This document shows, in pieces, positions 47,806 through 50,687 of a DNA stretch of 64,000 bases (the first letter of the stretch is position 1; each line of letters begins with the position of its first letter). The stretch is from NCBI RefSeq assembly GCF_008274585.1, contig NZ_VTRT01000003.1, positions 186,001-250,000 of the forward strand, read 5' to 3'. The notes beneath the pieces are model-generated. The model saw nothing but the letters and a program-made list of their open reading frames with translations. It was not told where the DNA came from and made no database searches. The translations under genes and the position numbers were made by a program. This DNA is from Pedobacter sp. BS3. Lineage in GTDB: Bacteria > Bacteroidota > Bacteroidia > Sphingobacteriales > Sphingobacteriaceae.

Positions 47806-48159
47806 TTATTCTTCGGCATGCAGCCAGGCTTTTTTAGCAAGCAACTCTTCTTTGGTTTCCCGCACATCCTCATCGTCTACACAACAATCAACCGGACATA
47901 CTGCTGCACATTGCGGTTCATCGTGAAAACCCACACACTCTGTACACTTATCAGATACGATATAGTATACCTCGTCTGAAATTGCGGGTTGAGATTCCTC
48001 AGCATCCAGAGTAGTACCATCTCCAAAATCGATAACTCCTCTTAAGCTGGTTCCGTCCGAAAATCTCCATGCTGTGCCGGCATCATAAATTGCGTTATTA
48101 GGGCATTCCGGCTCACATGCCCCACAGTTTATGCACTCATCGGTGATTTTAATTGCCAT
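47806..48159 (-). CDS. 2[4Fe-4S] ferredoxin
   Basis: Low-potential electron carrier of 117 aa with two four-cysteine clusters: CINCGACEPECPNNAIYD and, after a linker, CTECVGFHDEPQCAAVCPVD. The second cluster motif has an insertion of about six residues (GFHDEP) between the second and third cysteines, characteristic of Allochromatium-type dicluster ferredoxins with a negative potential. The C-terminal tail is helical. It is divergent from the acyl-CoA reductase gene 97 bases away, so it may supply electrons to a related pathway. It has its own hairpin terminator. Confidence 0.92.
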   Translation of the reverse strand: MAIKITDECINCGACEPECPNNAIYDAGTAWRFSDGTSLRGVIDFGDGTTLDAEESQPAISDEVYYIVSDKCTECVGFHDEPQCAAVCPVDCCVDDEDVRETKEELLAKKAWLHAEE

Positions 48160-48256: not shown

Positions 48257-49285
48257 ATGATTGAGATTTTGACACATAATAAACGAATAACCGCACTGGC
48301 AAACCTGGGCGACTGGTTAAAACAGGGCGATACGGCCCTTGATACACTGATACAGCACACCAGCATGCATAATGCCTGGTTTACCCCTGCATATACTCAA
48401 AAAGCGTTACAGGCTATTGCCAACATGCTAACCATCAGCAATTTAGAACACTGGTTACAGCCATATCCCAATACCTATACAGAGGAACCTAAAAACGTAG
48501 GGCTGATACTGGCCGGAAACATTCCATTAGTTGGGTTTCACGATATTTTGTGCGTGCTGATGTCCGGGAACAGGGCTTTGATAAAAATGTCTTCACAAGA
48601 TCAGCAGCTTATCCCCTATCTGCTTGATCAATTAGTTAAACAGGAACCGACCTTTGCGGGGCAGTTCCGTTTTGTGGAACGGCTTGAAAACTTCGATGCC
48701 GTAATTGCCACCGGCAGCAATAATACATCGCGTTATTTTGAATATTATTTCGGGAAAGTTCCGCACATTATCCGTAAAAACCGGAATAGTGTAGCCGTGC
48801 TGAACGGCAACGAAAACCCAGCTTCATTATACCGCTTAGGAAATGATATTTTTGATTATTTCGGTTTAGGATGCCGGAATGTCTCTAAAATCTTTGTACC
48901 GCAAGGTTATAATTTCAGTACACTGTTCGAGGCTATTGAACCTTTCAAAAAAGTGGCAGAACATCATAAATATAGCAACAATTACGATTACAACAAATCC
49001 ATTTTCCTGGTAAACGGCGATCATCATTTGGATAACGGATTCGTGTTGCTTAGACCTGACAGCAAACTGGCCTCACCCCTGGCGGTGGTTTATTATGAAG
49101 AATATACCGGTTTACCCAGCCTGGAAAGACTATTGAGAGACCAAAGCGATAACATTCAATGTATTGTATCTGAAACACCATTATCAGTAAATAACCAGGT
49201 AATAGCCTTTGGACAAAGCCAGCAACCGCAATTATGGGATTATGCCGATGGAATAGATACCATGCAATTTTTGAGTAGCCTGTAA
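48257..49285 (+). CDS. Acyl-CoA reductase (LuxC-like)
   Basis: Aldehyde-dehydrogenase-fold protein of 342 aa related to LuxC acyl-CoA reductases that reduce acyl-CoA to aldehyde. The segment PKNVGLILAGNIPLVGFHDILCVLMSGN holds the nucleotide-binding helix, VIATGSNNTSRYFEYYFGKVPHI follows, and GLGCRNVSKIFVPQGY carries the likely catalytic cysteine. It is shorter than LuxC (about 480 aa), as is common for Bacteroidota members. It stands alone on the plus strand, divergent from the ferredoxin. The acyl substrate is unknown. Confidence 0.85.
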   Translation: MIEILTHNKRITALANLGDWLKQGDTALDTLIQHTSMHNAWFTPAYTQKALQAIANMLTISNLEHWLQPYPNTYTEEPKNVGLILAGNIPLVGFHDILCVLMSGNRALIKMSSQDQQLIPYLLDQLVKQEPTFAGQFRFVERLENFDAVIATGSNNTSRYFEYYFGKVPHIIRKNRNSVAVLNGNENPASLYRLGNDIFDYFGLGCRNVSKIFVPQGYNFSTLFEAIEPFKKVAEHHKYSNNYDYNKSIFLVNGDHHLDNGFVLLRPDSKLASPLAVVYYEEYTGLPSLERLLRDQSDNIQCIVSETPLSVNNQVIAFGQSQQPQLWDYADGIDTMQFLSSL

Positions 49286-49495: not shown

Positions 49496-50644
49496 CTACA
49501 GCAACAAGCTGTCAATACGATGCGCCTGCACCATAGACCGATGCTGCGACCATGTGAATATGGTAAAATGACCGTCCTGCGAAGCAACAAGCGCATGCGC
49601 ATCCGGCTGATCGTGAACAAACTGCGCTGCCGAAAGATGCCTTGTTCCTCCTATTTGCGTTGAATGCACAATAACCGATTCGCCGCCAATAACAGGCTCG
49701 CTCATAGCAACCTGCTCCACCGGCTGACGCCCGCTTGCCCGGCCGATCTTTGCACCGAAAGCCAGCAGCTCATACTGCGTATTAATAATGGTAGCACCGT
49801 CTACCGCGGTAAGACCGGCCAGGTGCTCAATCTCCCGGTTCAGCGAACTTTGCCGGGCACTTTCGCTGCCGCGGCTTTCCACATCGGTAAAAATCAGTTC
49901 GCTAAGTCCCGAAAAAGTAGGCATTACCGGGTATTGTACAGGCTGTATAATAGAATGCTGCCAGCCGGCATCTTCTGCGGAAACCAGCAACAACGTTCCG
50001 CCATGCCGATGCGCCCGCATAGATACAGCCAACTGGATCAGCACATTTAACGGGTCATTCCACGACGCGGCCGAATAAAATCCCAGCAGATACTTCAGCA
50101 TATCGGGGCAATCAGGCACTCCGCCATTATAAGCATCCACAATTTTCACCTGGTCGCCTTTCAACACCGCCACATTGGTATATTTACCATAGCCACATAT
50201 CCGCCGGTGCTTGATCACCAGCAAACCCGGCTCCGACACATCCAGCACAAAACAGAAGTTCGGCACAGAAAGCGTTGTGCCCCACAAATACAATTCATCG
50301 CCATCCGTCCAGACACCCAAATGCACACCGGCCCGCTCCACACCCGGCGCCAGCTTGGTGAGTATAGCAGGACTTAACGGAATGCGATGCCCGAAAAGCA
50401 AGGGATTTCCAGCCTGCTCCGGCGGCAAAAAGGCCAGCGAGATACGTGGCGAATGTCCCTCTTCCCGGCGAAGACTGGCCCAGAACGCAGCATCGATCAA
50501 CGCCTCAATAACTGCCGACGAGGGTACGGGAGCCCGGTTGCTATCTTCACAGGCAGGGTCGCCACCGGCGGCAAGCCTGTTAAAATGCTCTTCTATCGGT
50601 GCCGCCACAATTCCGGCGGCCTGGTAGGTTGATCTGTAAGTCAT
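49496..50644 (-). CDS. Protein with a C-terminal diadenylate-cyclase-like (DisA_N/DACNV) domain
   Basis: Cytoplasmic protein of 382 aa. The C-terminal part looks like the DisA_N nucleotidyl-cyclase fold: AVDGATIINTQYELLAFGA carries a DGA motif (residues 282-284) and GGTRHLSAAQFVHDQPDAHAL an RH motif (Arg335, His336), followed by LVASQDGHFTIF. True diadenylate cyclases have DGA and RHR; here the third residue is Leu, and the two motifs are about 50 apart instead of about 33, so activity is uncertain. The N-terminal half (about 1-260) resembles what I know as the DACNV sensor-type domain. The gene is visibly GC-rich compared with its neighbours, hinting at transfer. No partner genes are adjacent. 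Confidence 0.78.
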   Translation of the reverse strand: MTYRSTYQAAGIVAAPIEEHFNRLAAGGDPACEDSNRAPVPSSAVIEALIDAAFWASLRREEGHSPRISLAFLPPEQAGNPLLFGHRIPLSPAILTKLAPGVERAGVHLGVWTDGDELYLWGTTLSVPNFCFVLDVSEPGLLVIKHRRICGYGKYTNVAVLKGDQVKIVDAYNGGVPDCPDMLKYLLGFYSAASWNDPLNVLIQLAVSMRAHRHGGTLLLVSAEDAGWQHSIIQPVQYPVMPTFSGLSELIFTDVESRGSESARQSSLNREIEHLAGLTAVDGATIINTQYELLAFGAKIGRASGRQPVEQVAMSEPVIGGESVIVHSTQIGGTRHLSAAQFVHDQPDAHALVASQDGHFTIFTWSQHRSMVQAHRIDSLLL

Positions 50645-50687
50645 TCACAAAGTTAATGGATTCACATCATAAGCCATGTCAGTTATT

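Follow-up and report, generated by a model that had tools for sequence, protein, structure and literature searches.

The reverse-strand open reading frame at positions 49496-50644 of the window (the whole 64,000-nucleotide stretch of Pedobacter sp. BS3 DNA analysed) was confirmed in the list of open reading frames and is a genuine gene. As judged from homology and structural modelling, its 382-amino acid product is composed of an N-terminal DACNV domain and a C-terminal domain with DAC fold. DAC enzymes are recognised by the motifs DGA and RHR. In the clade to which the protein belongs, found in a Bacteroidota family and in Acidobacteria, DGA and RH are kept and one RHR residue is changed; this change of the third residue is a clade trait. 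We give an about even chance to the reading that the protein is an active nucleotide cyclase of DAC fold whose phosphate site has been rebuilt, the likeliest product being c-di-AMP formed from ATP. The clade offers a natural test of the role of the third arginine, and the protein is a candidate for producing a second nucleotide signal in a bacterium already having CdaA. The chief points of interest are that the third arginine is changed clade-wide in company with K299 and Q341, and that the domain listed as a sensor resembles DAC in its modelled shape.

Domain architecture and DAC fold

The N-terminal domain matched the Pfam model PF21751 (DACNV, 'probable sensor domain') with 117.9 bits against a cut-off of 27 (Table 1); the Pfam model covers that domain only. 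The preliminary description had called the protein stand-alone and DisA_N-like and had missed the DACNV domain, which precedes the DAC-like part. The Pfam DAC model PF02457 scored 12.7 bits over residues 332-359, under its cut-off of 27, and a Pfam search at E values up to 1 gave no match to CdaA_N (PF19293) in the protein. The DACNV domain was reportedly introduced by Burroughs et al. (NAR, 2015), who are said to have already described its pairing with DAC. Our literature search retrieved nothing recognised on the DACNV family; the string 'dacnv' appeared only in an unrelated, antibody-titled paper.

The full-length protein was modelled with an alignment of only 10 sequences (the 382-aa protein and its relatives L001-L009). 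Five models had mean pLDDT values of 58 to 76, and the best one (pLDDT 76, pTM 0.59) was kept. The modelled C-terminal domain superimposed on M. tuberculosis DisA with c-di-AMP (9y4s_D) with an rmsd of 2.6 over 130 residues, and the superposition spans residues 178-380 of the model. In the structure ranking, rows 1-40 were all DAC structures with Z values of 10.2-13.4, followed by a row with a Z value of 2.9, and Foldseek concurred on the DAC fold (3c1y, E = 6.5e-05). When the protein and the two clade alignments were used as queries against the sequences of solved structures, 0 matches were obtained at E values up to 1.

For profile comparisons by hhalign, 21 CdaA rows of the phylum were used (21 of 23 CdaA loci; the selecting script required DGA, then RHR). 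The C-terminal domain of all 115 aligned DACNV rows matched these with a probability of 88% (E = 3e-6), and DGA was paired with DGA, TRHL with LRHR, and SQDG with SEETG. The same domain of the 94 altered-clade rows alone gave the same pairing with a score of 31.3 (probability 37%, E = 3.5e-4); 100 controls with shuffled columns reached 24.8 at most. Together with the conserved motifs of the relatives and the fold match to DisA, this upholds the earlier assignment of a diadenylate cyclase-like C-terminal domain that carries DGA and RHLSA. Separate sites for the two motifs, which would speak against it, were not found: the DisA superposition of the model takes in both DGA and RH, and the profile alignment pairs both. 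By homology, this pairing places DGA and RH in one DAC site.

Table 1. Features of the DACNV-DAC gene; positions refer to the window
Feature	Position	Strand	Basis
DACNV-DAC protein gene, 382 aa	49496..50644	(-)	ORF, Pfam, relatives
DACNV domain, residues 36-124	50273..50539	(-)	PF21751, E 2.4e-34; residues 1-178 modelled separately
DAC-fold domain (predicted), about residues 186-382	49499..50089	(-)	VIA Z 13.4 to DisA 9y4s_D; hhalign to CdaA
DGA motif, residues 282-284	49793..49801	(-)	94/94 clade rows; aligned with CdaA DGA
K299, clade-specific lysine	49748..49750	(-)	93/94 clade rows, 0/21 other DACNV rows
Stretch of residues 300-331, between DGA strands and RH helix	49652..49747	(-)	Lengthens DGA-RH spacing
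GGTRHLSA, residues 332-339; RH and Leu337 where RHR is usual	49628..49651	(-)	Census
Q341, four residues past L337 on predicted helix 334-345	49622..49624	(-)	94/94 clade rows, 0/21 others; helix from model
SQDG, residues 355-358, where CdaA has SEE[TRS]G	49571..49582	(-)	Alignment; CdaA census

A putative nucleotide site would be formed from DGA, T-R-H, and SQD, with binding predicted from fold and homology. In the excerpt of the study of S. aureus DacA with ApCpp, D176 and G177 contact the ribose, T207, directly before RHR, contacts the phosphate, and no contact is given for the third arginine of RHR (PMC6368335). Counterparts of D176, G177, and T207 are present here as D282, G283, and T334, and position 334 is T or S among the altered-clade rows listed. 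The SEE of CdaA is aligned with SQD, so that one acidic residue is gone. According to the excerpted sources, M. tuberculosis DacA with RHR exchanged to AAA neither bound ATP nor was active (PMC3328451), and the same exchange led to loss of activity of M. bovis CdaM (PMC13022847). Mutation of the third arginine alone was not found in the literature searched, which was present in excerpts, and such work may exist outside it; RHR is not mentioned in the excerpt of PMC10167629.

The likeness to DisA from M. tuberculosis and T. maritima comprises the DAC fold of the C-terminal domain, DGA, and RH, and is confined to the DAC domain. The 382-aa protein differs from DisA by the absence of the third arginine and by a distance of 53 residues from the D of DGA to the R of RH (D-to-R spacing). 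Its DAC domain is C-terminal, whereas the catalytic domain is described as N-terminal in DacA/DisA in the excerpt of PMC3328451.

The third residue of the RHR motif

The census started from 118 distinct proteins, a subset of the DACNV matches from the genome surveys in which rows identical over the last 150 residues were counted once. Three fragments were dropped (L112_8 with no motif, L135_6 with GTRHRS and DGA, and L009_2 with GGTRHLS and DGA), and 115 rows were aligned. The altered clade accounts for 94 of the 115 rows and has GG ahead of the RH motif. The third residue was L in 78 of its rows, F in seven, M in three, I and V in two each, and S and Q in one each; R was found in none, which bears out the altered RHR motif reported before (RHL in the 382-aa protein). 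DGA is invariant in the clade (Table 1), and the clade rows listed with GG[TS]RH span two phyla. Outside the clade, the third residue was R in 21 of 21 DACNV relatives, combined with DGV in 16, DGA in four, and DGL in one.

In a quick tree calculated with the motif columns left out, one change separates the two third-residue states, and the separating branch has an SH-aLRT value of 98; the deep part of the tree is made unsure by long branches (L134, L132, and L131). Most simply, the third arginine was lost in the clade ancestor: the tree by itself does not separate loss from gain, but RHR is present in CdaA and DisA, which makes loss the simpler assumption. L132 and L134 are members from the Acidobacteria side that sit on very long branches and have Ser or Gln as the third residue; they may have split off early from the rest of the altered clade.

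K299 and Q341 distinguish the altered clade from the other DACNV rows (Table 1), as does E316, present in 92 of 94 clade rows and in 1 of 21 others. These three residues possibly compensate for the absent arginine. With a single change on the tree they may only mark the clade, as shared descent alone could explain the co-occurrence.

The D-to-R spacing was 53 in 92 of the 94 clade rows and 51 and 54 in the remaining two, compared with 32-33 in the 21 CdaA rows; a spacing of 33 follows from positions given in the excerpt of PMC3328451. The longer spacing pointed out in the preliminary description is thus real in comparison with CdaA, but it has no connection with the altered motif, since the 21 DACNV relatives with RHR all have a long spacing, too (49-52).

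Some genomes of the family carry a second, longer DACNV protein (clade B, listed open frames of 444-477 aa). Like the 382-aa protein, the clade B paralogs have a DACNV domain (tested in three), a DAC-like C-terminal domain, SQDG, and the long spacing, but they differ in having an intact RHR and DGV or DGL where the altered clade has DGA. Among 16 clade B rows (L081-L095, called at 441-469 aa, and L105), RHR was present in all, with DGV in 15 and DGL in one. With RHR kept and DGA changed, clade B is the mirror image of the altered clade.

Distribution and predicted function

Of the genomes sampled, the DACNV domain was detected in 132 of 201 from the window's family, 11 of 395 across the phylum (nine from the same family, two from another family), and 22 of 297 for the phylum to which the Acidobacteria locus L006 belongs; these are domain counts that include both clades. 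The closest named relatives are from Chitinophaga (62-63% identity). The same genome has one DAC-family match, a CdaA (L010) with the CdaA_N transmembrane domain, DGA, RHR, and SEETG, together with one 7TM-HD protein (PgpH-type), and is therefore likely capable of c-di-AMP chemistry. The 382-aa protein resembles this CdaA in DAC fold family and motif order but has neither CdaA_N nor RHR nor SEETG. In another genome of the phylum, a 591-aa open frame (L162) has a DAC match above the cut-off (44.9 bits, E = 2.1e-11) and a length unlike that of CdaA.

The active cyclase given an even chance above would be a two-domain signalling protein, probably soluble as no CdaA_N was found. Its DACNV domain would be regulatory, and its C-terminal DAC fold would bind the nucleotide at the DGA/T-R-H/SQD site. 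Other conserved polar residues, K299 and Q341 being the candidates, would have taken over the holding of the phosphate from the third arginine. Under gating by the N-terminal domain, the protein may then serve as a second, conditionally active cyclase alongside the housekeeping CdaA. Retention of D, G, A, R, and H across two phyla favours catalysis over decay, and the presence of K299, Q341, and E316 together with the third-residue change argues for a rebuilt active site. The occurrence of DACNV in about two-thirds of the sampled family genomes and the c-di-AMP chemistry of the genome also speak for an active cyclase. Against it count the loss of function in the whole-motif RHR to AAA mutants, as far as the excerpts of those studies go, the change from SEE to SQD, and the fact that position 337 is not strictly fixed. 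With no partner gene, the neighbours lend no support to a signalling circuit.

The preliminary description had offered nucleotide synthesis and nucleotide sensing as alternatives, and this is still the choice between the readings. The absent third arginine and the SQD motif would also fit a pseudoenzyme or nucleotide sensor, whose DAC fold would bind ATP or the c-di-AMP produced by CdaA, leave it unconverted, and relay the binding via DACNV. The separate CdaA in the genome is consistent with this, as is the co-occurrence of RHR-bearing DACNV paralogs with the altered clade in some genomes (e.g. G050, G105, and G193). A pure binder would, however, be expected to vary its catalytic residues somewhere, yet DGA is kept in every clade row and RH in the clade rows listed; we regard a sensor as the leading alternative, possible but somewhat unlikely.

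The N-terminal domain itself gives rise to another reading. Mammalian adenylyl cyclase has C1 and C2 halves, one live and one dead. Similarly, the DACNV 'sensor' may be a degenerate DAC fold without the RHR helix, forming an internal one-chain pseudo-dimer of one live and one dead half whose rebuilt site would yield a linear nucleotide or a non-standard one and not symmetric c-di-AMP. The excerpt of PMC8573169 states that DAC enzymes require a head-to-head pair; the pseudo-dimer would supply this pair from a single polypeptide. In the separate model of residues 1-178 (pLDDT 84, pTM 0.84), rows 1-19 of the ranking were all DAC structures with Z values of 5.1-6.7 over 104-116 aligned residues, and the first other fold had a Z value of 3.1; the pool was preselected by Foldseek, and Z values below 8 may reflect just a common arrangement. 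The best two Foldseek matches were CdaM with weak E values of 0.17 and 0.23, and by eye the helices and strands follow one another as in DAC, which is not a test. hhalign found nothing between the N-terminal domain and either CdaA or the C-terminal domain (probability 0.3 to 1.6%). Ungapped profile scans over lengths of 20, 30, and 36 gave p values of 0.82, 0.91, and 0.97 against CdaA and of 0.44, 0.08, and 0.05 against the C-terminal domain, and the segments best paired in the latter scan were not equivalent in strand/helix order. Structural hints thus speak for the one-chain pseudo-dimer and the sequence tests do not support it, and we judge it unlikely. If the N-terminal domain were a dead DAC copy, it would show a route from a two-subunit cyclase to a single chain.

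An active enzyme with another product is still more doubtful. Here, the rebuilt phosphate site and a changed strand (FGAK) would lead to a different cyclic or linear dinucleotide, or to use of another NTP or acceptor. The clade-specific residues K299, Q341, and E316 at or near the site are in line with it, and the separate CdaA leaves room for a second signal. A decaying gene with no nucleotide function might explain the patchy occurrence (no DACNV match in 69 of the 201 family genomes), but it is highly improbable in view of the lack of internal stops among the matches listed and of 45-63% identity over 47 relatives with 27 invariant columns (Bacteroidota, Acidobacteria, and one Gemmatimonadetes fragment).

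Neighbourhood, GC content, and origin

In 40 neighbourhoods from 16 genera (L041-L080), analysed for ORFs and clusters with simple custom scripts, gene clusters located up to four genes from the DACNV-DAC gene were common to four genera at most. The top neighbour cluster (cluster 2, four loci) comprised proteins of very unequal lengths on either side of the gene, and at 29 of the 40 loci neither flank had a neighbour on the same strand at a distance of up to 60 bases. For the loci sampled, the protein thus works without a linked partner gene, in agreement with the earlier statement that no neighbour of known partnership exists.

With a GC content of 0.55 versus 0.45 in the flanking ORFs, the gene is GC-rich against its surroundings, as described before, and its GC3 value is higher than in any of the 12 flanking ORFs with a length of at least 450 bases. 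This is no sign of a recent insertion: in 48 of 48 examined loci of the clade, the GC content of the gene was above that of its flanks (+0.043 on average), the rise of about 0.10 observed here being among the largest. Recent arrival from a GC-rich donor was rejected as the main cause because of this clade-wide rise and the position of the 382-aa protein among 17 rows that are all from its own family (97*). An old transfer between Acidobacteria and Bacteroidota may have taken place. Searches of NCBIfam, PADLOC, and PHROGs with the protein gave no match at E values up to 1, and a phage or defence origin was rejected on the PADLOC and PHROGs results and on a search of viral contigs, which yielded 22 pattern matches, 0 of them confirmed as relatives.

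The -7 promoter element of Bacteroidota is TAnnTTTG. Of 41 loci, 12 had it in the upstream 100 bases, compared with 91 of 414 control ORFs, with no clear enrichment. In the window, TAnnTTTG is found at 50648-50655, beginning 11 bases upstream of the start codon, and would suggest a leaderless transcript or one with a very short leader. The gene is flanked by a divergent pirin gene on one side and a convergent ORF for a LuxC-like acyl-CoA reductase on the other (48257-49285, 342 aa, partial LuxC match with 32.2 bits at a cut-off of 21). An ORF at 47806-48159, divergent from the LuxC-like one, appears ferredoxin-like by eye.
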